Notes under the pieces: model-generated
Told to the model about the DNA's origin: nothing
The model's database searches: none
The model's input: the letters and a program-made list of their open reading frames with translations, nothing else
In this document: in pieces, positions 47,665 through 64,000 of the stretch
How the letters are laid out: every line of letters begins with the position of its first letter
Numbering within the stretch: position 1 is the first letter of the stretch
Translations under genes and position numbers: made by a program
Assembly: GCA_029940475.1 (NCBI GenBank)
Contig: JAPYUT010000015.1
Coordinates: forward strand, 1 to 64,000
Source of the DNA: Verrucomicrobiales bacterium
GTDB lineage: Bacteria > Verrucomicrobiota > Verrucomicrobiia > Verrucomicrobiales > DEV007
Direction of reading: 5' to 3'
DNA length: 64,000 nucleotides

Positions 47665-47728
47665 AAAAATGGTGAACTTAGACTAATCTTTGTGCACCTC
47701 ACTTCCTTTTAATGCCCTCACCCTCCTG

Positions 47729-50700
47729 ATGCCCTTCAACTGGCAACAATCCCTCACCACTACGTGCTCGGCTGTTCTGCTCTGCCTGCCCGAGGCATCC
47801 GCGAGCCTGCGCATCTCGGAATTCATGGCATCCAATGACGGGGCATTAACCGATGAGGACGGGGATTCCTCAGACTGGATTGAGATTGAGAACACCGGGA
47901 TTAACGCCACGTCCGCGGGTGGCTGGTTCCTGACTGACTCCCCGGAAAACCTCAACCGCTGGCAATTGCCGCCGGTTGAAATCCCCGCAGGCGGCTACCT
48001 TGTTGTCTTTGCCTCGGGCAAGGACCGGGCAGTCGCGACCAGCGAGCTGCACACCGACTTCCAGCTTGAAGCCAAGGGCGAATACCTGGCCCTGGTGCGC
48101 CCCGATGGGTTCAGCGTTGCCAGTGAAATCACCTACCCCGAACAGCACGCCGATGTCTCCTTCGGCACGGACAGGCAAACCACGGATTTCCCCTTCATCA
48201 CCCCGCACTCGCCCGCGCGTTTTCTTGTCCCGGCCAACGGTGCACTCGGCCGGGGATGGACAGCCCCCGGGTTTAATGATTCCGGCTGGCTTTCCCTTAA
48301 AGCCGGAATCGGCTACCAGATCGACACCGGGGGCGGCGGTGCCGGGCAGCCGCGGGCCTACTGGGATTTTAACGGCGATGCCCGGGACCGCTCCGGTAAC
48401 GGGATTGACGGGACACTCCTGGGACCCGGCTTCTCGGGCACCGTGCCACCCGGGGGAGGCTCCGCCTCAGTGGTCTTTGACGGCGGCGGCGACTATGTCA
48501 GCGCCCCTCTGGACGTCTCTGAAGAATCCTACACCTGCTCACTGTGGTTTCGCACGACAAATGCCAACGCCGGCTTGTTCTGTGTCGTCGACAGCAACCT
48601 TGGCAGCGGCGGACACGACCGGCACCTCTACTTAAGCGGCGGCAACATCGCCTCCCGGGTCTGGAACAATGAGACCATCCGCTCCTCGGATCTCTCCCTT
48701 GCCGACGGGCAGTGGCACCACCTGGCGCATGTCTACGGCGGGTTGACCGGCGGCCAGCGAATCTACATTGACGGCACCTTTGCCGTTGGCGGCGGCAAGG
48801 CACAGTCAGACTTCAACTGGCAAAGGCACGTCAACATCGGCTTCTCCAACGACGCGCAGCAGCAGTATCTCACCGGCAACATTGATGAAGTGGCACTCTG
48901 GAGCGAGGCCCTTGATGTCGCGCAGGTCGGCGCACTGGCAAACGGCATCTCCCCGATGGCCCTCGGCGGCTTTGATCCGGTGATCATCAGTGACGTGGAA
49001 AACCGGATGCGCAACATTAACGCCACCGCCTACCTGCGTGCCGCCTTCAACGCAGCTGAGCTCGATCAACTCGAAAAGCTCGAGCTGCGCATGCGCTACG
49101 ACGACGGCTTCATCGCTTACTTAAACGGCAGCGAGATCGCACGCCGTGAGGCGCCGGCAAACCCGCTCTGGAACAGCCAGGCGAGGACCAACCGCGCAAA
49201 CACTGATGTCCTCACCCCCGAGGTAATCAACATCAGCGCCCACCTGGGACTGCTCAACCCGGGTAGTAACACCTTGGCCGTGCACGCGCTCAACAACGGT
49301 GCCACCAGCAGCAACTTCCTGCTCCTTCCCGAGCTGGTCGGCGTGCGCATTGACGAGGAGGCGCAGCGTTATTTCATCTCCCCGACACCCGGCACGGCAA
49401 ACAGCGGGGGCGTGGTTGACTTTGTCGCCGATACCAAGTTCTCCCACGACCGCGGCTTCTATGACAACATGTTTGAGGTCACCGTCACCAGCACCACCCC
49501 CGGAGCATTTTTAGTCTACACCCTTGACGGCTCCAAACCCTCACCCGGAAACGGCATCACCGTTGCCGCAGCGGATGACACATCACCTCCCTCGGTAAAC
49601 ATACCCATCAGCTCGACATCAACCCTGCGCGCCGCCGCCTTCCGCTCCGGCTGGCAGCCAACCAATGTTGATACCCACAGCTACATCTTCATCGACGCCG
49701 TTGCCCGGCAACCCGCATGGCCATCGGATTTTCCAGGCGGTTGGTCCAATTCCGGGGCCGACTACGGCGTCGATAGTGACGTGGTCAACTCAACCCTGCC
49801 CGGCTACAGCTTTCGTGAGGCCCTGCTGTCCATACCCACCATGAGCATTACCAGCGCTCCCGGCGACATCTTTGGTGCCCAGCGCGGCATCTACTACCAC
49901 TCCACCGGGCGCGGGCGCCCCTGGGAGCGCGAGATTTCCCTCGAGATGTTCCACCCGGACGGCAGCACGGCTTTCCAGGAGGACTGCGGCGCACGCATGC
50001 ACGGCAACTCCAGCCGCAGCCACGGCTTCACCCTCAAGCACCCCTTCCGCATCCTCTTCCGCAATGAATACGGCGCCGGAAAACTGCGCCACAAGCTCTT
50101 TACCGACTCCAGCGTTGAGCGTTTCGACCAGATCCTGCTGCGCGGCGCCTCGACAGATTCCTGGCCGGTGGCCGACGGCGGGTCGCGCTGGCTCAACGAG
50201 CGCGGCACCTACATCCGCGACCAGTGGGTACGCAACGCGCAGATCGCCCTCGGCCAGCCATCAAGTCACGGCACCTACGTGCACCTGTTCGTCAACGGGC
50301 TCTACTGGGGCCTCTACAACCCCTCGGAACGGCCAACTTCATCCTTCACCGCGGAGCACATCGGCGGCGAGAAGGAGGATTGGGACATCTTCAAGGACTT
50401 CGCTGAGCTGCGCGAGGGAAACAGGACCGCCTGGGATCAGATGTTTGCCCAGGCCAACGCCGGATTGAGCAGCAATACTGCCTACCAGCGAATCCAGGGC
50501 AACAACCCTGACGGCACGCGCAACATGAGTTACCCAGTATTGGTCGATGTGGACAACCTGATTGACTACATGCTCGTGCATATCTACATCGGCGGCGAGG
50601 ACTGGCACCAGCACAACTGGTGGGCGGGTCGCCGCAGGGGTGCGGAGAGCACCGGCTTCAAGTGGTTCGCCTGGGACCAGGAAATCTCCAACGAGTCACT

Positions 50701-52807
50701 CACGCGCACGGTCTCACTGGCCGGGACGCGATTCGAGGACCCCTACTACGGGCGCCAGGGACCCGCCCACATTTACGGCAAGCTGCTCGACAACCAGGCA
50801 TTCCGCTGGCGCTTCCAGGACCGGGTGCACGAGCTGCTCTTCAACGACGGTCCGCTCACCGCTGAGAATGCCGCGAATATCTGGCTTGCACTGCAAAATG
50901 AAATCGACCAGGCAATCGTCGGCGAGAGTGCCCGCTGGGGCGACACCCGCGACGCCGTGCCACACAAGCGTGAGACCTCCTGGCTGCGGGAAATGGACTG
51001 GATGCAGAATATCTACTGGGAAGCCAACCACGCCCGCGTGCTGCGCGAGCGTTTCCAGCGCGTCGGGATCTACCCGAACATCGCCGCACCCACCTTCAGC
51101 CGTATTGGCGGCGTGGTGCCAAGCGCTGCCCAGCTGTTCTTCGACGCCGGTGAGTTCAATGTCTACTACACCACCGACGGCTCCGACCCGCGCGGGCCGG
51201 GCGGCGGCCACTCGCCATCGGCGAAAGCTTACAACGGCGGCTCACAGGATGCTGTCCTGCTGCCGAAGAACTCAATCTGGAAATACCTTGATGACGGCTC
51301 CGATCTGGGCAGCGCCTGGAGGGCGCCCGGATTTGATGACAGTAATTGGGCAAGTGGCGCCGGGCAGTTCGGCTACAACGAGGGCGACGAGGCCACGGTG
51401 GTCAGTTACGGTGGCGTCAGTTCCGACAAGCACATCACCACCTACTTCCGCACCACCCTCGAGATAGCCGGCGCCGGCGCGGTTTCCGACCTCTCGCTGG
51501 GTGTGCTGCGCGATGACGGTGCCACCCTCTACCTCAACGGCACAGAAATCGCCCGCAGCAACATGCCCGGTGGCGTGATCAGCCATGACACCACCGCGCT
51601 CTCCAACGTCCTCGGTGCCAACGAGGATAAATACCATGTCTTTGAAATCGACCCGGCACTGCTCGTCGACGGCACCAACGTGCTCGCCGTCGAGGTCCAC
51701 CAGGTTCATTCCCAGAGCAGCGACCTGAGCTTTGACGCCACCCTCAATGCCACCGTGCAAACCTCGGTGGAACCGGTGGAAATCACCACCTCCGGGACTA
51801 TTAATGCGCGCGCCTTCAGTGGTAGCGAGTGGTCGGGGATGAATTCCGGGCACTTCATTGTCGGGGCACTCCTGGCATCGCAGGCAAACCTTGTCATCAG
51901 CGAGATCCACTACCGCCCTGCTGCCCCGAGCACCGGGGAGGCGGCTGCCGGCTTCAGCTCGGCAGGGGATTTCGAGTTCATTGAGCTGGCCAACATCAGC
52001 CCAAGCCCGGTCGACCTTGCCGGGGCACGCTTTGAAAACGGCATTGACTTTGATTTCTCCGCTGAGGCTGACTTCACCGAGGTTGCCCCCGGCGGACATG
52101 TCCTGCTGGTCGCCAACCGCGCCGCCTTCGAGCAACGCTATGGTAACGGCCTGCCGGTCATCGGCCGGTTCGGCAATGCCACCTCGCTTGCCAACGACGG
52201 TGAGCGGCTGCGGCTGGTGTCCGCAGGCAACGAGACCATTCGTGACTTTGCATACGATGACAAGGCTCCCTGGCCCGCCGCCGCTGACGGCGGCGGCTTT
52301 TCACTCACCCTGCTCAACCCGGCGGCAAATCCCGACCACTCGCTGCCCGAAAGCTGGCGCGCCGGCCTTGATCCCGGCGGCAGCCCCGGGAAAACCAATG
52401 GCGGTATCGGCTTCGCTGCCTGGCAACAGGCATGGTTTGATCCCTCAAGCGGTGATTTCCCCCTGAGCTCCGCAGCCACCGCCGACCCGGACGGCGACGG
52501 GACACCAAACGCCATGGAGTTCCTGCTCGGCAACTCCCCGCTCAGCCCCGGACCCCAGGGCATTGATGTGGGTAGCGTTGGCGACGGGGATAATTTGCGC
52601 CTGACAGTCTCCTTTACCCGCCGGGCAGCGCTTGCAGGCACTGCGTGGCAGATTGAGCGGTGCACTGTTCCCGGCAGCTGGTCACCGGTGCAAACCTCGC
52701 TCATCCAGTCTGTTGCACAGGGTGGCCTCATCCGCGAGACACATCGCCTGATGGCACCGATGGATGCCACGCCGTGGCAAATGGTGAGGCTCCGTGTCAG
52801 CCTGTAA
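47729..52807 (+). CDS. Giant secreted lamin-tail/LamG/CotH protein
   Basis: About 1692 residues from the ATG at 47729, which precedes a signal peptide; an upstream TTG at 47690 is less likely. Domains: lamin-tail (about 25-147), LamG (about 204-410), jelly-roll (about 414-544), chitobiase-C-like (about 568-657), CotH (about 705-990) with FAWDQEISNE near 980 in the metal-motif position, a second chitobiase-C-like segment, a second jelly-roll (about 1178-1347), second lamin-tail (about 1388-1517) and a C-terminal beta domain with a DPDGDGTPNAMEF calcium-type loop. Its 3' end and downstream region are duplicated at 58179-58815 as a decayed copy. Extracellular; function inferred only as surface binding or modification. 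Confidence 0.88.
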   Translation: MPFNWQQSLTTTCSAVLLCLPEASASLRISEFMASNDGALTDEDGDSSDWIEIENTGINATSAGGWFLTDSPENLNRWQLPPVEIPAGGYLVVFASGKDRAVATSELHTDFQLEAKGEYLALVRPDGFSVASEITYPEQHADVSFGTDRQTTDFPFITPHSPARFLVPANGALGRGWTAPGFNDSGWLSLKAGIGYQIDTGGGGAGQPRAYWDFNGDARDRSGNGIDGTLLGPGFSGTVPPGGGSASVVFDGGGDYVSAPLDVSEESYTCSLWFRTTNANAGLFCVVDSNLGSGGHDRHLYLSGGNIASRVWNNETIRSSDLSLADGQWHHLAHVYGGLTGGQRIYIDGTFAVGGGKAQSDFNWQRHVNIGFSNDAQQQYLTGNIDEVALWSEALDVAQVGALANGISPMALGGFDPVIISDVENRMRNINATAYLRAAFNAAELDQLEKLELRMRYDDGFIAYLNGSEIARREAPANPLWNSQARTNRANTDVLTPEVINISAHLGLLNPGSNTLAVHALNNGATSSNFLLLPELVGVRIDEEAQRYFISPTPGTANSGGVVDFVADTKFSHDRGFYDNMFEVTVTSTTPGAFLVYTLDGSKPSPGNGITVAAADDTSPPSVNIPISSTSTLRAAAFRSGWQPTNVDTHSYIFIDAVARQPAWPSDFPGGWSNSGADYGVDSDVVNSTLPGYSFREALLSIPTMSITSAPGDIFGAQRGIYYHSTGRGRPWEREISLEMFHPDGSTAFQEDCGARMHGNSSRSHGFTLKHPFRILFRNEYGAGKLRHKLFTDSSVERFDQILLRGASTDSWPVADGGSRWLNERGTYIRDQWVRNAQIALGQPSSHGTYVHLFVNGLYWGLYNPSERPTSSFTAEHIGGEKEDWDIFKDFAELREGNRTAWDQMFAQANAGLSSNTAYQRIQGNNPDGTRNMSYPVLVDVDNLIDYMLVHIYIGGEDWHQHNWWAGRRRGAESTGFKWFAWDQEISNESLTRTVSLAGTRFEDPYYGRQGPAHIYGKLLDNQAFRWRFQDRVHELLFNDGPLTAENAANIWLALQNEIDQAIVGESARWGDTRDAVPHKRETSWLREMDWMQNIYWEANHARVLRERFQRVGIYPNIAAPTFSRIGGVVPSAAQLFFDAGEFNVYYTTDGSDPRGPGGGHSPSAKAYNGGSQDAVLLPKNSIWKYLDDGSDLGSAWRAPGFDDSNWASGAGQFGYNEGDEATVVSYGGVSSDKHITTYFRTTLEIAGAGAVSDLSLGVLRDDGATLYLNGTEIARSNMPGGVISHDTTALSNVLGANEDKYHVFEIDPALLVDGTNVLAVEVHQVHSQSSDLSFDATLNATVQTSVEPVEITTSGTINARAFSGSEWSGMNSGHFIVGALLASQANLVISEIHYRPAAPSTGEAAAGFSSAGDFEFIELANISPSPVDLAGARFENGIDFDFSAEADFTEVAPGGHVLLVANRAAFEQRYGNGLPVIGRFGNATSLANDGERLRLVSAGNETIRDFAYDDKAPWPAAADGGGFSLTLLNPAANPDHSLPESWRAGLDPGGSPGKTNGGIGFAAWQQAWFDPSSGDFPLSSAATADPDGDGTPNAMEFLLGNSPLSPGPQGIDVGSVGDGDNLRLTVSFTRRAALAGTAWQIERCTVPGSWSPVQTSLIQSVAQGGLIRETHRLMAPMDATPWQMVRLRVSL

Positions 52808-52831
52808 CTAACTGAAATTTAATTACTAACA

Positions 52832-52853
52832 TTTTTTTTGGGGGGGGGGGGGG
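52832..52853. repeat. T8-G14 homopolymer tract
   Basis: Eight T (52832-52839) directly followed by fourteen G (52840-52853), about 25 bp downstream of the giant gene's stop and about 190 bp upstream of the next giant gene. The homologous tract at 58657-58673 is T8-G9. Long G-runs are prone to slipped-strand length change, so this could tune expression of the downstream gene. Assembly or sequencing error in homopolymers is an alternative. Confidence 0.6.
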
Positions 52854-52946
52854 AGTTTAGGGTCGACTCACGCGGCGTATTGCCCAATAATCGTTGCTAA
52901 TAAAAGAAATGGGGGATTTTGGGTAATTAAAATAACGGGGCGCATT

Positions 52947-52972
52947 CCACGCTGAGCTTTTTTCTCACGTGG
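52947..52972. other. Conserved hairpin upstream of the first LamG/TSP3 giant gene
   Basis: CCACG and TGAG pair with CTCA and CGTGG around a T-rich loop. The homologous place at 58771-58798 keeps a hairpin although bases differ (CCACGT/ACGTGG), so the structure rather than the sequence is preserved. It lies about 70 bp before the ATG at 53042, inside the expected 5' UTR. Confidence 0.5.
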
Positions 52973-53041
52973 ATCTCAACCGCCTATTTTGTACTCATCA
53001 AACCTTACTTAATCAGTCCTGCAAAACCCTACGACAAAAAC

Positions 53042-56000
53042 ATGACCATCAAATCCACATTCCTAAGTATCTTGTTTACCATTCTGGCGATATTTACATT
53101 TGCTCCTACTCAAGTAGTGAACGCCGCATTTCCGGAACCCCTTCTCTTCTGGGATTTTGATGACATCTCCGACGCCGGAGTAGCCGTTGATGTAAGTCCA
53201 CATGGACAAAACGGTAGCATTATCGATGGCGCTGCATTCTCTGCCGATGGCGGGGGTCACTCAGGAGCAGCCGGCGACTATTCCATCAACCTTGGTGGCC
53301 ACAATGGCAGACAAACCGTCAAGTTGGTGACCAATCACTTCAACACCGCAACAGCCAATGACACGATTACCTTCTCCTTCTGGCAGAAGAGCACCGTAAA
53401 CCAAAGCACCTCGAGCTTCATGCTCTATTCCCCAAGCAATAACCGGGCAATGCATGGACACGTTCCCTGGGGTAATGGTCACATCTACTTTGACGGTCCC
53501 AACTGCTGTGGCGGTGACAGGCGGATTAATGGACCCGGGGGTATCGTCGCCAATGAATGGACCCACTTCGTGTTCCAGAAATTCGGACCAAATAAAGAGG
53601 TGTGGGTCAATGGCGTAAAGATGACCTGGAGCAGAGGTGGACAGGCTGCCCTGCCAAGTGATACCACGGAATTCACTGTCGGCAGTGAGCGGGGTGGAAA
53701 CAGTGTCAACGGTTTCATTGATGAATTTGTCGTGTTCGGCGAAACCCTGACCGCGGCGCAGATCGCCGAACTTGCAGCCGGTGCAAACCCCGTGCCTCTC
53801 GAAGACAATGATGAGGATGGCTTGTCCGATGCCTGGGAGATCGCAAACTTTAATAACCTGGACCAGGACGCCAGTGGCGACCCCGACAATGACGGGGTAA
53901 ACAACGGGGATGAATTCGCCATCAGGACTGACCCGAACGACGATGACACCGATGATGACGGGCTTACCGATGGCGCCGAGATCGCCGGCGGCACCAACCC
54001 GAAGAACTCCGACAGTGATGCTGACGGGCTTAACGACGGCGCCGAGATCGCCGCCGGCACAGATCCGCTCAAATTCGACAGTGATGGGGACAGTTTCTCA
54101 GACGGCACCGAGGTCACCGCGGGTACCGACCCGGTCGATGAAAATTCAACCCCAGGACTCATATCCATTGATTTGAGTTTCCCTCCCTTGTTGGGTGGAC
54201 CCGGTGGCACCCTATACGCACCAAACCTGGCTGAGCCGGGTCTGACCATGCAGCAGAATCACTACGCCGATGGAGTTGTCGCCAACAACCAAGCTGAGCG
54301 GAACTACAACCGGGTTGCCCTCACCGCAACTGACTGGCCGCCTATAAGGAGCGCTCAACAAACCCAGCCTTACTTCGACCACGGCGGCGGTGGCTTCAAT
54401 ACTCCATCAGGAGGTAATCGCGCATATATCGATGGCGGCGGAGACGACTTCTCTATCCGTATTAATGGCTATGTGCTCTTTAAAAATACCGGGCAATACA
54501 CAATCTACCTCCGGGCAGATGATACAAACTACTTCATTATTGACACTCCGGAGGGACGTAAGTCAGCCAATCATAACTGGATTGGCGGCGTGGATAAAAC
54601 CCTCATTTTCAATGTCTCCTCTCCCGGCTATTATCCCTTTGATAACGTGATGTGTGAAGACGGTGGCGGCGACTGGGGAGATGTCAGTATCACCGGCCCC
54701 GGTATCACCCAGCGCGCCGCTCTCGGCGACGTGGCCGCCGGAAGCCCGGCAATCTACACGATCCTGGGCACAGACAGTGATGAGGACGGGCTGCCGGATT
54801 GGTATGAAATAGACAACTTCGACGATATCACGACCACTGATGGAAGTGGTGACGCGGACAATGACGGATCAACCGATGCACAAGAGTATGCAGCCGGCAC
54901 TGGCCCGAATGACACCGACAGTGATGATGACGGGCTCAATGATGGCGACGAAGCCGTTGCCGGCAGCGACCCGCTTAATCCCGATAGTGATGGTGACGGG
55001 TTATCCGACGGTGTCGAAACAAACACAGGCACCTTTGTCGACGCTAATGACACGGGCACCGACCCGACTCTTGCAGACAGTGACGGGGACTACTTTCAGG
55101 ACAAGCTCGAGATTGATAACGGATCCGACCCGACCGATGACGATTCCCGGTTATTCGCACTCGGCAATCTTGATGTGCTAAGCGGGCTGCCCAGCGGCAC
55201 TTATCCAATGGGCTTTGGCAGCAGCATCGTTAACGCCTACATCCACAACGACGGGACAGACAGCTGGGTGCTGGTCGGTCGCGGCCGTGAAGGATGGAAC
55301 TGGAGCGCAGATGGCCAGGGCTCAGTCGGCGACGTTATCAGGAACCTTGGCACCCCCGGTGCCTTCGCTCCCGCCACATACAGCACGAACGCCATCAACG
55401 GGTTGCTCGCCGCCTCGGGCGTCACTAACCTGACTGAGATCGAGATTCGCCTCAAGCGCGCCAGCAACCCCCAAGGCTCTGCCTATGAGGAGGCCCGCTG
55501 GCGTCCGAATAATGCAGCTGATACCGCGTGGCGCTGGAACTTTGATACCGCGATGAACGTCCAGTATGAAGTGGTGGAAACCAACGGTGCGCCGGGCGGA
55601 CAGATCGGAGTTTCGGACCGCAACACCCGTGACGGTGAACTCGGCGGAAACGACAGTGACCGTATCTTCACTTGGGCCTGGGGTGGCCATAACAACTCTA
55701 AGGGCTTCAGCATGGGGCAAAATGTTACCACCGGCAGCCAAGCCTCCAACAACTTCCACTGGGATCATCCCAACAACGGGTTCAACCACTCCATCCCCTA
55801 CACCGAGGTCTATGTTCGCATCAAGAACCCTGGCGTGGTTGCCCTTGACGACACCGATGATGACGGCACGATGGATGCCCTTGAGGTGGCTCTTACCGGT
55901 AATCTGGACACCCTTACCGGGGATGTGGATGAGGACGGGCTTAGCGACTCGAATGAGTTTAGCTCCGGTACCAATCCTTATCTGGCTGACACTGACGGTG

Positions 56001-58030
56001 ACGGGCTCAACGACGGCGATGAGGTCAACACCCACAACACTAACCCACTGCTGGTAGACAGTGACGGCGACGGGCTCAACGACAGCGATGAGATCAACAC
56101 CCACAGCACTAACCCACTGCTGGCAGACAGTGACGGTGACGGTATTGCGGACGGTTTAGAGATTGGTGCCGGCGGCGACCCCAATGACCCAGATTCGAAA
56201 CCGGAAATCTTGAATGATCTCAACATTGTCAGCATGTTGCCTTCCGGCACTTATCCGGTCAAAATCGGCGAGCAGACAATTGGCGCTTACGTCAATAATG
56301 ACGGGACAGACAGCTGGTTGCTGGTCGGTCGCGGTCGTGAAGGATGGAACTGGAGCGCAGATGGCCAGGGCTCAGTCGGTGACGTTACCAGGAACCTTGG
56401 CACCCCCGGTGCCTTCGCTCCCGCCACATACAGCACGGCCGCCATCAACGGGTTGCTCGCCGCCTCGGGCGTCACTAACCTGACTGAGATCGAGATTCGC
56501 CTCAAGCGCGCCAGCAACCCCCAAGGCTCTGCCTATGAGGAGGCCCGCTGGCGTCCGAATAATGCAGCTGATACCGCGTGGCGCTGGAACTTTGATACCG
56601 CGATGAACGTCCAGTATGAAGTGGTGGAAACCAACGGTGCGCCGGGCGGACAGATCGGAGTTTCGGACCGCAACACCCGTGACGGTGAACTCGGCGGAAA
56701 CGACAGTGACCGTATCTTCACTTGGGCCTGGGGTGGCCATAACAACATCATGGGCTTCAGCATGGGGAATAGTATCACCACCGGCAGCCAAGACTCCAAC
56801 AACTTCCACTGGGATCACCCCAACAACGGGTTCAACCACTCCATCCCCTACACCGAGATCTATGTCCGCATCAAGAACCCTGGGACCCCGGTCACGCCGG
56901 ATACAGATGGAGATGGCATCAGCGATACCGTTGAACTGCTCGTTGCCGGCGATCTGGACACGTATGGCAGTGGTAACGCTGACCAAATAGTGACCCGGTT
57001 TGACAGTGACGGTGACTCGTTTAGTGACGCTATCGAGGTGGCACGCGGCTCCAACCCGAATGACAACACCAGCACCCCGTATGGCGACAGCCTCGGCCTG
57101 CTCGCTTACTTTGACTTTGACGATCCATCAGACCCGGCAGTTGCCGTGGACCTTGCCTTTGGCCAGGTCGCTGACGTCAATGCTGCGGTTTACTCGGCGG
57201 ACGGCGCAGGCCACTCAGGGACTGCCGGCGACTATTCCATGTCCTTTAACGGTAATCAGAGTGTAGTCCTTGGGAATATCGGTCATCCACGCACCACCAA
57301 AGCCGCTATCTTCAATGGCGCCGCCGCCAATGACACCATAACCTTGTCATTCTGGATGAAGACCAGCGCGGGACACAATAGCAATACATTCAACTTCTAT
57401 TCCCCCAGCGTTTCCCACACTCGTGCCTTGTGGGCACATGCCCCCCATGGTGGCCAGATCTACTTTGACACCGCGGGATGCTGCGCTGCTCCTGGACAGC
57501 GCATCAACGCCCCCGGCGGTATCGTCGTCGGTCAGTGGCAACACTTTGTCTTCCAGAAGAACGGTGAAACCAAGACAGTGTATAGGGACGGCGAGGTAGT
57601 GATGACTGGGGGCGGCGCGTGGCCTCTGCCCACCGACATCAGCGCCCTCTACATCGGGGCCGGTGCGGTGTATGGAGTCATCGACGAGTTTGCCGTCTTC
57701 AATGGCCCGTTGAGCCAGGATCAGATCACCAGGCTTGCCAATGGAGACTCGCCCATCGACCTGATCATCCCACCCGTGGACCTGGCGATCATCGGTGACC
57801 CCGTGTATACCGAAGGTGGTGGGGCCAACGGCGAAGATGTCCTGTCCATTACCTTCGCCAGCAATCCCAATGGATTCTACGCGCTCGACCGAATGACTAA
57901 CCAAGGCTGGGAAGAAATAGATGACGGTCTCGGGGTGGCTGAGGCCGGTAACAGCACCACTATTGATATTATCGTTACTGGAAGCAATACCTACCGTATC
58001 CGCGACATAATCCTGCAGGATACTCCCTGA
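53042..58030 (+). CDS. Giant secreted LamG/thrombospondin-type-3 mosaic protein
   Basis: 1662 residues with signal peptide (about 1-29). Domains: LamG (about 30-250); Asp-rich thrombospondin-type-3-like calcium repeats (about 255-365); PA14/GLEYA-like domain (about 400-545); TSP3 repeats (about 575-690); a fibrinogen-C-like module with [15 protein letters not shown] (about 705-930); TSP3 repeats (about 935-1040); a second, nearly identical module (about 1055-1280); TSP3 repeats; a second LamG (about 1355-1580); and a short C-terminal domain. The duplicated module carries 306 identical bases. Likely an extracellular, calcium-rigidified adhesin-like rod; no enzyme motif seen. Followed by a strong terminator. 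Confidence 0.87.
55250..55833. repeat. Internal duplicated module, copy 1
   Basis: 584 bp nearly identical to 56300-56883, offset exactly 1050 bp (350 codons). Within it 55391-55696 is identical base for base to 56441-56746, including third codon positions. It encodes the fibrinogen-C-like module. Recent duplication or gene conversion. Confidence 0.9.
56300..56883. repeat. Internal duplicated module, copy 2
   Basis: Second copy of the module at 55250-55833. A more diverged third copy lies in the neighbouring giant gene at about 62725-63330. Confidence 0.9.
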
Positions 58031-58086
58031 TATCCCTGGGTTATTTGCAGGACTTAAAACCCCGGTAAAGATCCTTGTTTGATCCA

Positions 58087-58125
58087 CCCGGCGGGAAGCA
58101 GAGTTGCTTCCCGCCGGGTTTTTTT
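58087..58125 (+). terminator. Rho-independent terminator
   Basis: A perfect 14-bp GC-rich stem (CCCGGCGGGAAGCA, loop GAGT, then its complement) followed by seven T. It ends the transcript of the LamG/TSP3 giant gene 57 bp after its stop codon and separates it from the decayed duplicate downstream. Confidence 0.92.
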
Positions 58126-58178
58126 AGTCTCCGGGCAAGTCCTTCACCCGGTCCGCAGAGTCAGCCCCTTCGCCGGCC

Positions 58179-58630
58179 TGCCGGTAATCGGGCAGTTGGC
58201 AATGCCACCTCGCTTGCCAGCGACAGTGAGCGGCCTGCGGCTGGTATCCGCCGGCGGCGAACCCATCCGTGACTTTGAATACAATGACAAGGCTCCCTAG
58301 CCCGCCGACCCGGACGGCGACGGCACACCAAATGCCATGGAGTTCCTGCTCGGCAACTCCCCGCTCAGCCCCGAACCCCAGGGTATTGAGGTGGGTAGCA
58401 TTGGCGACGGGGAAAATTTGCGCCTGACAGTCTCCTTTACCCGCCGGGCAGCGCTTGCAGGTGCTGCGTGGCAGATTGAGCAGTGCACTGTCCCCGGTAT
58501 CTGGTCACAGGCACAAACCTCGCTCATCCAGTCTGTTACACAAGGTGGCCTCATCCGCGAGACGCATCGTCTGGCGACACCGGAAAATGCCACATCGTGG
58601 CAAATGGTGAGGCTCCGTGTCAGCCTGTAA
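58179..58630 (+). pseudogene. Decayed duplicate of the CotH giant gene's 3' end
   Basis: Homologous to 52150-52807, the last ~220 codons of the 1692-residue giant. It has no 5' part, two compensating one-base indels near 58190-58230, an in-frame TGG-to-TAG change at 58298-58300, and a deletion of about 210 bp between short CCGCCG repeats. The last 97 codons (58337-58630) stay open, ending at the same stop as the parent. The homology continues past the stop into the intergenic region up to about 58815, so a genomic segment was copied. Confidence 0.85.
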
Positions 58631-58656
58631 CTCACTGGAATTAAATTGCTTACATC

Positions 58657-58673
58657 TTTTTTTTGGGGGGGGG
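58657..58673. repeat. T8-G9 homopolymer tract (second copy)
   Basis: Duplicated counterpart of the T8-G14 tract at 52832-52853, with five fewer G. It lies about 215 bp upstream of the last giant gene. Confidence 0.6.
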
Positions 58674-58770
58674 ATAGGCTTCAGGCTCGACTCACGCGGC
58701 GTATTGCCCAATAATCTCTGTTAATAAAAAAATTGGGCATATTTGGGTTATTTAGAACGGCTGTCTGATT

Positions 58771-58798
58771 CCACGTCCAGCTTCTTTGGTTCACGTGG
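58771..58798. other. Conserved hairpin upstream of the second giant gene
   Basis: CCACGT (58771-58776) pairs with ACGTGG (58793-58798). Counterpart of the hairpin at 52947-52972, with compensating base differences. It is followed by the palindrome CTCAAGCGCTTGAG at 58801-58814, which is degenerate in the first copy. Confidence 0.5.
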
Positions 58799-58889
58799 AT
58801 CTCAAGCGCTTGAGGTTTTCTTCCTTTACCAGTTCTAAATGTCATTCGCCCTGACAAAACCTCACACAAACTTCCACCGTCCTTTTACC

Positions 58890-61800
58890 ATGAAAAACAC
58901 ACTGCCTCTCCTCGCCTTCTTCACCATCCTGATCGGTTCAGCATTTGGCCAGTTGCCCACACGCAACCAGGTCCTCTGGCTTGACGCCTCGGATGCCGCC
59001 ACCATCACCGCTGACGCCAACGGCCTCGTCTCACACTGGGCCGATAAGAGCGGGTCAAATTCCAACGCAATTCAGCCTGAAGCTGCCCGCCAGCCACACA
59101 TCAACACCGCGGTGATCGGCGGCAAGGATGGCATGCGGCAGGATGCCACTACCGGCATGAGAATCGAAAACCTCAGCCTCGCACGCCCCTACTCCATCTT
59201 CATCGTTGACCAATATGCTGCCGACGCAGTCAACAAGGGACGCACCCTGCAGGCAATTGACAATACAGGCGGTGGCAACTGGCTGTTCGGCAAATGGGGC
59301 GGATACCACGCTCATCACGCCGGACAATGGGTCGGGATTTCAGGAGGTATCGGAGCCCCGAACGGGGAGGCAAAGATTGCCGAGGGAACCGGGACATGGC
59401 AGTCCAGCGACTGGTCACTTAACGGCTTTGGTCACGGCGGTAACCAGCACCCGGGTGCGCCCGGTGCCATGGCCTTCGGGATTGAGGGCCAGTATAATGC
59501 TGAAACCAGCCAGGCAGAAATTGGCGACATCATCGCCTACGACCGCCTGCTGGACAACGCCGAGCGCGAGCAGGTCATCGCCTACCTTGGCAACAAATAC
59601 TCCCTGCCGGTCGTAGCTCCTGAAGACGCGACCCGCGTCTCGGTCTTCAGTGGTGCTGATCCCGGCGAGGGACTTGACTTTCAGGGCAACTTCATTGCCG
59701 CTGTTGAGGCCGTCGGAGGTGGTGGGTTCACCATCGGCGACGCCACCTTCACCAGTGACGCTGGAATTATCGCCGCCCCGAACGCTGCCGCTAACTGGGG
59801 GCCCGGTGTCGCCAACATTGCAATCGACAGTGCCGATGACACCAATCTCATCCAGGTGATGAACGACATCCGCTGGGCACCCGGCGCGTCGGGCCTTACC
59901 GCCACCGTCCCGGGACTCACCAAAGGCAAGCACTACAAGGTGCAAATGCTCTTTGCCGACAACGGCGTGATCCGCCACTGGGGGGTGTGGGTTGAAGGCT
60001 CCCGCGTCGCGATCGACTTCAACGGCGCCGGCTACACCGGCGGCGGGGCTGACCACGGTGTTGCCCTGGTGCACCGCTTCGTGGCAGGAGATGATACCCT
60101 GAACATCCTCTTGCGCTCTGACGGCCTGGGCCACGGTGACATCAACCCGATCATCCAGGGCCTCACCGTTGAGGAGGAGGACATAACCACCTTGACCAAC
60201 ATTGTTGAAATTACCGGTGCCTCAACACTCGACTTCTCCGGCGAGATCACCCACGCCGTCAACATTGGCGGACCCGGCGGAGCAGTCGTTGGTGACGCGG
60301 TCTTCACCGCGGATAACGGTGTTGCCGGCGTTGAAGTCGTGGCCGAGAACGTGGCGAGCCCGTGGGGAGCTGCCCGTAACATCGGTGACTCAGCTGAAGA
60401 TAACGCGCTGGAGGGAGTCCTTAACAGCATCCGCTGGCAGTCCACGGATTATGCGGGCACATTCAGATCCAACACCCCGGGCAACGACGGTATCCACGTG
60501 CGCCTGGACGGGCTCACCGACGGCGAGGGCTACAAGCTGCAGTTGCTCTTCAGCGAGTTAGGTGTGAACCGCGGCTTTGACATCTCGGTCAACGGCAGCC
60601 TGGTCGTCGACGAGTTCCCCACCAACCAGGGTGAGAGCAAGAACTTCGCCGTGGTGCATTATTTTGTTGCCGATGGCACTGATGTGACTGTGCACTTAAG
60701 CGGTATCGCAGCCACATTCGCCGACAGGAACCCGATCCTAAACGGCGTCACCTGCGAGGAGATCGGAAGCTTTGACAGTGACGGTGACGGCCTGTTCGAC
60801 GGCTGGGAGGAACAACACTTCGGCGACCTGGCCCAGGATGCCAGTGGCGATCCTGATGGTGACGGTCTCACCAACGCCGAAGAGTTTACTGCCGAGACAG
60901 ATCCGACCAAGGCGGACAGCGATGAGGACGGACTCACTGATCCGCAAGAGCTCGCCGGGGGTACCGACCCGAACAATAGCGACAGTGACGGTGACGGGCT
61001 CATCGACGGCGATGAGCTCAACACCCACAGCACCAACCCGCTGCTGGCAGACAGTGACGGCGACTACTTCAAGGACAAGCTCGAGCTTGATAACGGGTCC
61101 AACCCGAACGAGGCCAACAGCATCCCGATCGCCGATGGGCTCGGGCTCCTCGCTTACTGGGACTTCGATGACCCCTCCGACCCGGTTTTTGCCACCGACG
61201 CCATCTTGGGCCAGACCGCCCAGTTGCACAACGGCGTAGCCTATAGCCCTGCAAGAGGAGGCCACTCGGGATCATCGGAAGACTATAGCGTGCACTTCAC
61301 AGGTGGCTGGCAATCTGTCCTCCTCAGCGATGCCGGTTATTTCAATTCCGCCGCCGCCACGGACAAGATGACCATCTCATTCTGGCAGAAAACCCAACTG
61401 TTCACAAATCCCTCTACATTCCACCTCCATTCCCCCAGCGTTTCCAGCGGTCGCGGCTTGTTTGCACATGTCCCCCATGGCGGCCAAATCTACTTTGACG
61501 GCCCGGGATGCTGCGCGGGAAACCAGCGCATCAACGCCCCCGGCGGCATTGCCATCAACCAGTGGCATCACTTTGTCTTCCAGAAGGACGGCCACATCAA
61601 GACAGTCTGGAAAGACGGTGTGCAAGTTGTGACTGGAAGCGGTCAGTTGGCACTGCCCACCGACCTCACCCAGCTTAACATCGGGTACCAAAACGTGTTT
61701 GCAGACATCGACGAGTTTGCCGTCTTCAATGGTCCCTTGACCCTGGCGCAGGTTGCTTTGCTCAGCAAGGGCGCCTCGCCCACTCACCTGATCGGTGGCG

Positions 61801-64000
61801 ACAGCGACAATGACGGGCTCAATGACAATTGGGAAAGAGACAACTTCGGCGACCTGGCCCAGGATGGCAATGGCGACGCCGACGATGACGGGCTGTCCAA
61901 TGCAGAGGAATACGCCCTGGTCACCAAGGTGAATAATCCAGACAGCGATGGCGATGGTCTCGATGACGGCGACGAAGTCGCCGCCGGGACTGATCCATTC
62001 AATCCTGACAGCGACGGCGACGGGCTTACTGATGGGTCTGAAGTCGCTACCCACAATACCAACCCGCTCAACTCCGACACGGACGGTGACGGGGCTGCGG
62101 ACAATGCAGAGGTTGGCGATGCGTTCCAGCGCAGTGACCCCAATGACGACGACTTGACACCGGTAGTATTGACTGATCTCAACATGCTCAGCGCATTGCC
62201 TACCGGCAATTATCCCTTGATTGCTGTCTCCGGGGCGCAAGCACTTACCGCCTACAGTGCTGCCGAGGGCACAGTCGGAAACCAGGCCTTTGGCGGCAGC
62301 CTTGGTATGGATTTCGATGTCACTTCCCCGATTACCGTCAATGAGCTTGGTGCCTTTGACAGTGGCGGCGATGGCCTGAATCTGGAAATCGGCGTTGCAC
62401 TGATGAGGCGCAGCGATGCGGCGGTTCTGGCAACACTTAACTTAATTGGCAGTGACGACAGGCTTGCAGGAGGACATCGCATGAAGGCACTGGATCAACC
62501 CCTTGTGCTGCCTCCCGGAGGCTACTCCATTGTTGCCTGGGGCTATGGTGGCGCTGAGCAAAACGGTAATGGTATCGCGGGTTTCTCCACCGATGGTGGT
62601 GGTGGTGCCATCCAGTTTGTTGGTGGTTCCCGCTGGGATGCTGCTGCCGGGGTGCTTCCCGCGAATGTGGATGGTGGTCCCGTCAATCGCTATGGGGCGG
62701 GCTCCTTTTCCTACTCAACATCCGACCAGATAATCAATGCTTCCGTCGAGAATGACGGCACAAACAGCTGGGTGGTGATCGGTCGCGGCCGGGAAGGCTG
62801 GGCCTGGGGCGCCGACGGACAGGGATCCCCTGCTGACGTGAACAAATACCTTGGCACTCCTGCCGCATTCCCGCCTGCAGCATACAGTGCGGCCCTCATC
62901 AACAAGTTGATCGCCGACTCGGGCGCCAACCTGACCGGTGTGGAAATCCGCCTCAAGCGCGCCGCGAACGCGGAGGGCTCAACCTATTCGGACGTGCGCT
63001 GGACCCCGACGGATGAAACAGCATTTCGATGGGACTTTGATACCGGTGCTGGAATGAACGTGGGTTATGCGATGGTATCCACCGGCGGCGTCGCCGGGGG
63101 ACAAGTACTCACCCGTGCCGGCGGCAATACCAGGGACTTTGCCTCTGACACTGGCAACGACGGTGACCGCGTGTTCACCTGGCAGTGGGACCAGCACGCT
63201 ACCAAGGGCTTCAGTTATGGCAACCTTGTCACCACCGGCTCAAACAATGACACCAACTTCATCTATGAAAGACATGTCGAGAACCACGGCATTCCCTATA
63301 CCGAGGTCTCCATCCGCCTGAAGGACCCGGCGGCCCCGGTCACGCCGGATACAGATGGCGATGGCATCAGCGATACCCTTGAACTGCTCGTTGCCGGCGA
63401 CCTGGACACGTATGGCAGTGGTAACGCTGGCCAAATAGTGACCCGACCGGGCAGAGACAGTGACGGCGACTGGTTTAGCGACGCTATCGAGGTGGCCCGC
63501 GGCTCCAACCCGAATGACGACACCAGCACCCCGTATGGCGACAGCCTCGGCCTGCTGGCTTACTTTAACTTTGACGACCCGTCAAACCCGGCAGTGACCG
63601 TGGATCTTGCCTTTAATCAAGTCGCCGACGTGGTCAATGGTGCGGTTTACTCGGCGGACAGCGCAGGCCACTCAGGGAATGCCGGTGACTATGCCATGGA
63701 CTTCGGGGGCGGAGGCTCTCAGGGTGTCCTCCTGGGCGATGCCGGTATCCTCAATTCCGCCACCGCCAACGACACCGTGACCGTATCATTCTGGATAAAG
63801 ACCAGCGCGGGCGGGCAAAACACCTCGGTGTTCAACCTCTATTCCCCCAGCGTGTCTCACGGTCGCGGCTTGTTTGCACATGCCCCCTGGAGTAACGGCC
63901 ACATCTACTTTGACGGCCCGGGATGCTGTGACGGGAGCAACCGCATCAACGCCCCCGGCGGCATCGTCGTTGACCAGTGGCATCACTTTGTTTTCCAGAA
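58890..64000 (+). CDS. Giant secreted LamG/malectin-like/TSP3 mosaic protein, partial
   Basis: At least 1703 residues, open to the right edge with no stop. Signal peptide about 1-20. Domains: concanavalin-like (about 25-235); two related malectin/galactose-binding-like repeats (about 247-430, 435-623); thrombospondin-type-3 calcium repeats (about 627-747); LamG (about 749-967); TSP3 (about 969-1092); a beta module with GNQAFGGSLGMDFDV and RYGAGSFSYS (about 1094-1277), also found in the CotH giant on the minus strand; a fibrinogen-C-like module (about 1278-1480); TSP3; and a second LamG running off the edge. Related cassettes are shared with the 53042 gene. Probably a surface or matrix protein. 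Confidence 0.86.
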   Translation, partial: MKNTLPLLAFFTILIGSAFGQLPTRNQVLWLDASDAATITADANGLVSHWADKSGSNSNAIQPEAARQPHINTAVIGGKDGMRQDATTGMRIENLSLARPYSIFIVDQYAADAVNKGRTLQAIDNTGGGNWLFGKWGGYHAHHAGQWVGISGGIGAPNGEAKIAEGTGTWQSSDWSLNGFGHGGNQHPGAPGAMAFGIEGQYNAETSQAEIGDIIAYDRLLDNAEREQVIAYLGNKYSLPVVAPEDATRVSVFSGADPGEGLDFQGNFIAAVEAVGGGGFTIGDATFTSDAGIIAAPNAAANWGPGVANIAIDSADDTNLIQVMNDIRWAPGASGLTATVPGLTKGKHYKVQMLFADNGVIRHWGVWVEGSRVAIDFNGAGYTGGGADHGVALVHRFVAGDDTLNILLRSDGLGHGDINPIIQGLTVEEEDITTLTNIVEITGASTLDFSGEITHAVNIGGPGGAVVGDAVFTADNGVAGVEVVAENVASPWGAARNIGDSAEDNALEGVLNSIRWQSTDYAGTFRSNTPGNDGIHVRLDGLTDGEGYKLQLLFSELGVNRGFDISVNGSLVVDEFPTNQGESKNFAVVHYFVADGTDVTVHLSGIAATFADRNPILNGVTCEEIGSFDSDGDGLFDGWEEQHFGDLAQDASGDPDGDGLTNAEEFTAETDPTKADSDEDGLTDPQELAGGTDPNNSDSDGDGLIDGDELNTHSTNPLLADSDGDYFKDKLELDNGSNPNEANSIPIADGLGLLAYWDFDDPSDPVFATDAILGQTAQLHNGVAYSPARGGHSGSSEDYSVHFTGGWQSVLLSDAGYFNSAAATDKMTISFWQKTQLFTNPSTFHLHSPSVSSGRGLFAHVPHGGQIYFDGPGCCAGNQRINAPGGIAINQWHHFVFQKDGHIKTVWKDGVQVVTGSGQLALPTDLTQLNIGYQNVFADIDEFAVFNGPLTLAQVALLSKGASPTHLIGGDSDNDGLNDNWERDNFGDLAQDGNGDADDDGLSNAEEYALVTKVNNPDSDGDGLDDGDEVAAGTDPFNPDSDGDGLTDGSEVATHNTNPLNSDTDGDGAADNAEVGDAFQRSDPNDDDLTPVVLTDLNMLSALPTGNYPLIAVSGAQALTAYSAAEGTVGNQAFGGSLGMDFDVTSPITVNELGAFDSGGDGLNLEIGVALMRRSDAAVLATLNLIGSDDRLAGGHRMKALDQPLVLPPGGYSIVAWGYGGAEQNGNGIAGFSTDGGGGAIQFVGGSRWDAAAGVLPANVDGGPVNRYGAGSFSYSTSDQIINASVENDGTNSWVVIGRGREGWAWGADGQGSPADVNKYLGTPAAFPPAAYSAALINKLIADSGANLTGVEIRLKRAANAEGSTYSDVRWTPTDETAFRWDFDTGAGMNVGYAMVSTGGVAGGQVLTRAGGNTRDFASDTGNDGDRVFTWQWDQHATKGFSYGNLVTTGSNNDTNFIYERHVENHGIPYTEVSIRLKDPAAPVTPDTDGDGISDTLELLVAGDLDTYGSGNAGQIVTRPGRDSDGDWFSDAIEVARGSNPNDDTSTPYGDSLGLLAYFNFDDPSNPAVTVDLAFNQVADVVNGAVYSADSAGHSGNAGDYAMDFGGGGSQGVLLGDAGILNSATANDTVTVSFWIKTSAGGQNTSVFNLYSPSVSHGRGLFAHAPWSNGHIYFDGPGCCDGSNRINAPGGIVVDQWHHFVFQ

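Follow-up and report, generated by a model that had tools for sequence, protein, structure and literature searches.

Two copies of a compound homopolymer, a run of eight T followed by a long run of G, were found upstream of genes for secreted-type proteins in a 64,000-nt stretch of DNA from a Verrucomicrobiales bacterium (the window, i.e. the whole stretch that was analysed, which is part of the 66,976-bp contig C83). The T8G14 tract is real and probably slippage-prone. We consider the chances to be even that it is a homopolymer of the ordinary kind, prone to slippage, that stands beside a promoter, was copied in a duplication and possibly has a graded effect on expression. Length mutations may plausibly occur at the tract, but a dedicated ON/OFF switch is unproven.

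A run search placed tract 1 at 52832-52853 (T8 at 52832-52839, G14 at 52840-52853) and tract 2 at 58657-58673 (T8 at 58657-58664, G9 at 58665-58673), both on the + strand, in agreement with the sequence-only reading, which had described a G14 against a G9 after eight T. The two lengths are those of paralogous copies compared within one assembly. These are the only G-runs of nine or more in the window, and none of 100 dinucleotide shuffles of the window reached a T8G9 tract. The 3.97-Mb, 130-contig draft genome holds two T8G8 sites, both in the window; its seven other G-runs of at least nine are 9-10 nt long and none of them adjoins a long T-run, and the G14 is the longest G-run found. Mononucleotide tracts of about 8-9 or more slip often, and both the G14 and the G9 reach this length. 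The instability of the G14 in the present organism is assumed from other bacteria.

The duplicated leader and its genes

Tract 1 follows gene 1 (47690-52807, + strand), an ORF of 1705 aa for a protein with CotH, LamG and lamin-tail domains (Pfam CotH, Laminin_G_3, LTD), and precedes gene 2 (53042-58030, + strand; 1662 aa), which encodes a secreted-type LamG/TSP3-repeat protein (Pfam TSP3_bac, Laminin_G_3, PA14). Tract 2 precedes gene 3 (58890-63998, + strand), which extends beyond the end of the window and encodes another protein of this type; its start at 58890 was picked from the ortholog in genome G002 of the same genus, the start in the ORF list being 58839. Both gene 2 and gene 3 contain LamG domains and TSP3 repeats according to Pfam, and the proteins share 62% amino-acid identity across about 450 aa, with differing N-termini. 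Judged by eye, the N-termini resemble signal peptides, and the earlier description of the downstream products as repetitive secreted proteins is thereby borne out. Within gene 2 two 600-bp stretches (55234-55833 and 56284-56883) are 96% identical, which points to a recent internal duplication or conversion.

Self-comparison of the window showed that the leader was duplicated along with the 3' end of the CotH gene that precedes it, in a segment running from about 660 bp before the stop codon of gene 1 to a point about 60 bp short of the gene 2 start. The second copy of the CotH 3' end (58150-58631, + strand) is a dead remnant, interrupted by an in-frame stop and shortened by a deletion, and it retains 91% identity to gene 1 across the last 328 bp. 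The leader together with its promoter-like block occurs only twice in the genome, and a dispersed repeat family was rejected as its origin. In the sequence-only reading G-run length was the main difference between the leaders, and this proved wrong: outside a block of 31 nt the aligned copies are about 80% identical, with many gaps. Identity amounts to 78% from the CotH stop codon to the T8 and again to 78% from the G-run to the promoter-like block, rises to 97% in the 31-nt block itself (the borders of which were set after the alignment had been seen), and then takes values of 82%, 86% (a hairpin) and 77% (the rest). Since the tract is present in both copies, we infer from the sequences that it predates the duplication.

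In G002 the 3' end of the CotH gene is followed by a leader and then by the gene 3 ortholog (74% identity over 503 aa). Because the same order is seen there, CotH-leader-gene 3 is probably the older arrangement, and gene 2 with the extra leader would be the newcomer. The syntenic leader of G002 contains no long T or G run, and T6G8 is absent from the whole genomes of G001, G002 and G003, so that the tract was rejected as a conserved feature of the genus; from these comparisons it appears to be lineage-specific and recent. A 501-nt leader query matched two of 57 genomes, the bacterium's own and G002, and the latter match comprised the coding tail only.

Putative promoter and leader hairpins

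Directly downstream of each tract lies the promoter-like site TCGACT-N17-AATAAT, 9 nt past the G-run in copy 1 (52863-52891, + strand) and 13 nt past it in copy 2 (58687-58715, + strand). The promoter scan by itself was not significant (6 sites, against an expectation of 3.4 +/- 1.4). The site is, however, identical in both copies in the midst of leader DNA that is about 80% identical, and the G002 leader has at the matching place TCGACA-N17-AAAAAT with equal spacing, as read from the alignment by eye. Allowing up to three mismatches, the promoter-like block was found in one of four genomes of the genus, namely the bacterium's own. On this comparison of leaders the promoter of genes 2 and 3 likely lies at TCGACT-N17-AATAAT. 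With a transcription start placed about 7 nt after the -10 element, the G-run would occupy about -58 to -45.

In copy 1, 23 nt (14+9) separate the end of the T8 from TCGACT; in copy 2 the figure is 22 nt (9+13). Thus, the five additional G residues of copy 1 are offset by a shorter stretch after the G-run, leaving a net change of one base, and the near-constant distance could mean that the spacing is held fixed rather than varied.

Further downstream a hairpin is found in the presumed 5' UTR of gene 2 (52945-52975, + strand; -12.2 kcal/mol), with a counterpart in that of gene 3 (58770-58800, + strand; -11.5 kcal/mol). The outer stem CCACG/CGTGG is kept in the pair and the inner part is altered; the two are possibly an RNA element or an operator. 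Rfam matched no known RNA element in the window. The T8 was also considered as the U-tract of an intrinsic terminator of the CotH gene, an option that was rejected, as a scan of 52500-59000 gave no hairpin preceding the run at 52832 or 58657. A strong terminator-like hairpin was observed after gene 2 (58086-58125; the scan lists a site at 58086-58119), with 15 pairs and a T7 tail.

Polarity and placement of compound homopolymers

Compounds of a long A- or T-run and a long G-run are strongly polar, as is seen when each is set against its mirror pattern (e.g. G8T8) as a control. Among 387 genomes of the phylum, T8G8 was counted (by hand) at 120 sites in 64 genomes against a single G8T8, and A8G8 at 29 sites against three G8A8. 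In the set of 57 genomes T6G8 occurs 21 times and its mirror not at all, T6G6 118 times and its mirror seven times. The viral contigs of IMG/VR agree, with at least 120 stretches containing T8G8 and at least 120 containing A8G8; the mirrors G8T8 and G8A8 gave 15 and 19. At a run length of four no polarity was seen (in 1.1 Mb of viral loci, T4G4 55 and G4T4 60), and at a length of three the window contains 10 T3G3 and 38 G3T3, long target runs being masked in both counts. A T-run before a long G-run is not a general rule, as runs of G12 or more in the fetched loci of the relatives are mostly preceded by other bases.

These counts raise the possibility that T8G14 is one outcome of a mutational process that is general in bacterial DNA and strongly polar, so that long A/T runs have long G runs after them and almost never before them; we offer this tentatively and with less than even confidence. 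Our guess at the cause is that the nascent G-run, anchored by the weak A/T-run behind it, slips and that G-G pairing stabilises the slipped form. If such a process exists, compounds of an A/T-run and a G-run would be predictable slippage hotspots, some of them beside promoters, as here. The A/T-then-G polarity serves as a null model, under which the mere existence of compound tracts is no sign of switches. A search by titles and abstract openings found no published description of polarity of the T8G8 type; subscription coverage was partial, and this is not proof that none has been published. In Orsi et al. (PMC2831843) a word search on flanks and intergenic tracts gave no occurrence.

Some tracts of the T-run/G-run type come after terminator-like hairpins, and in the phylum set hairpins ahead of the T-run are somewhat more stable than those of shuffled sequence (-8.0 vs -6.0 kcal/mol), which suggests that some of the T-runs may be terminator tails.

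The placement of the tracts was determined on fetched loci, available for 30 of the 64 phylum genomes with T8G8, using crude calls of ORFs of 100 aa or longer. Tracts less than 150 nt from the end of a stretch, duplicates, and tracts with flanks of N or long runs were excluded, which left 41 of 41 in phylum and relatives (including both window tracts), 29 of 49 in a public T8G14 set and 97 of 108 in the viral set. Sixteen of the 41 clean tracts in phylum and relatives lie inside ORFs; of the other 25, which are intergenic, 5 have a right-hand gene (in the T-to-G direction) that reads away from the tract and 20 have one that reads toward it (p = 0.004). When the three sets are pooled, the figures are 45 away and 66 toward (p = 0.057). 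In 20 stretches, chiefly from long contigs, 13 tracts are located in ORFs. On these crude ORF calls T8G8 tracts as a class do not favour promoter positions, and the two window tracts, with a downstream gene that reads away from them, belong to the minority class. In the single-contig genome G265, three of the four T8G8 sites (L377, L379 and L380) have identical flanks, and therefore sit in a repeated element.

Explanations for the tract and known systems

The sequence-only reading took the tract for a possible slipped-strand switch on the promoter side. Its setting found support, in that a long tract stands shortly before a promoter-like site, one shared without change by both copies and recognisable in G002; the switch itself fared less well. 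As a true phase-variation switch, the G-run would by its length toggle genes 2 and 3 independently through slipped-strand mispairing, and yield a population mixed in its surface or secreted proteins. The promoter-side position, the two copies of unequal length, the repetitive, secreted products and the exceptional length of the G14 within the genome are all compatible with this role, but we regard it as unlikely, as the syntenic leader in the same genus lacks the tract, the promoter-like site is at nearly the same net distance in the two copies (a difference of 1 nt), and T8G8 tracts elsewhere show no preference for promoters. Moreover, the genome has no other such tract, and hence no set of such switches. 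Tracts of T8 and G are not rare in the phylum, and presence alone does not mark a switch. At the other extreme the tract may be an inert by-product, grown by slippage and carried along by the duplication with expression unaffected, as could be expected where tracts of this kind are frequent, polar and dispersed over the phylum and where the sister leader of G002 retains the promoter-like site without one. We consider this rather improbable, given that in both copies the tract lies at most about 60 nt from the likely transcription start and that a G-run of at least nine has been retained in both while the leaders diverged to about 80% identity. In addition, length changes of promoter-side homopolymers alter expression in other bacteria, as described for sabA (PMC11162790) and the Bordetella fim genes (PMC1891110). 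An artefact of poly-G sequencing or assembly is very improbable. It is true that 66 of 115 tracts in the public T8G14 set were less than 150 nt from where the fetched stretch ends, and many of these are in junk sequence; the two window tracts, however, have an internal position in a 67-kb contig and are flanked on either side by normal sequence, they recur in two diverged copies, and comparable tracts are found deep within multi-megabase contigs of other genomes. A number of phylum sites lie inside such contigs, so that the polarity is not an artefact alone.

According to the explanation that we favour, ordinary homopolymer mutation in the lineage would have given rise to the slippage-prone T-run/G-run, which would have adjoined the promoter of a gene for a secreted LamG/TSP3 protein and have passed into a second copy through the duplication of the CotH 3' end with its leader. 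A change in length at its position would be expected to shift and rotate the upstream DNA relative to RNA polymerase, and slippage may in this way lead to graded changes in the expression of genes 2 and 3. The wide occurrence of T8G8 in the phylum, in all kinds of positions, fits a mutational origin. If the length of the tract alters promoter output, the tract would act as a homopolymer rheostat on the promoter side of genes for giant secreted proteins, in a lineage that is uncultured.

Similar tracts can be found within the phylum, in Akkermansia, and in Chlamydia, which belongs to a phylum neighbouring the Verrucomicrobia, as well as in Helicobacter and Bordetella. In the Helicobacter pylori surface-protein gene sabA a T13-T18 tract lies close to the promoter, its variation among strains and effects on expression have been measured, and slippage changes the axial alignment of upstream elements, resulting in graded expression (PMC11162790). 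The window resembles sabA in having a mononucleotide tract upstream of a promoter-like site, as the sabA tract is upstream of the core promoter, and differs in that it has T8 with G9 or G14 and no UP element identified. Bordetella has a C-stretch at fim2, fim3 and fimX and a further tract upstream of bhuR (PMC1891110), i.e. G/C homopolymers that lie within a promoter or immediately before it, as here. The fim promoters differ in having a fim box and an activator, and length variants with expression data. Long mononucleotide tracts have likewise been proposed as slippage switches in Chlamydia, where they are of two kinds: a poly-A between the -35 and -10 elements of C. trachomatis lpxC, the length of which varies in reads (PMC4514472), and gene-internal, frameshifting poly-G tracts in the pmpG genes (PMC6740158). 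In Akkermansia, of the same phylum, tracts of more than 8 bp occur in 17 genes and phase variation by slippage was proposed; its two named examples lie inside capsule genes, whereas the window tracts are on the promoter side, and it is with such gene-internal tracts that the rheostat would contrast (PMC3048395).
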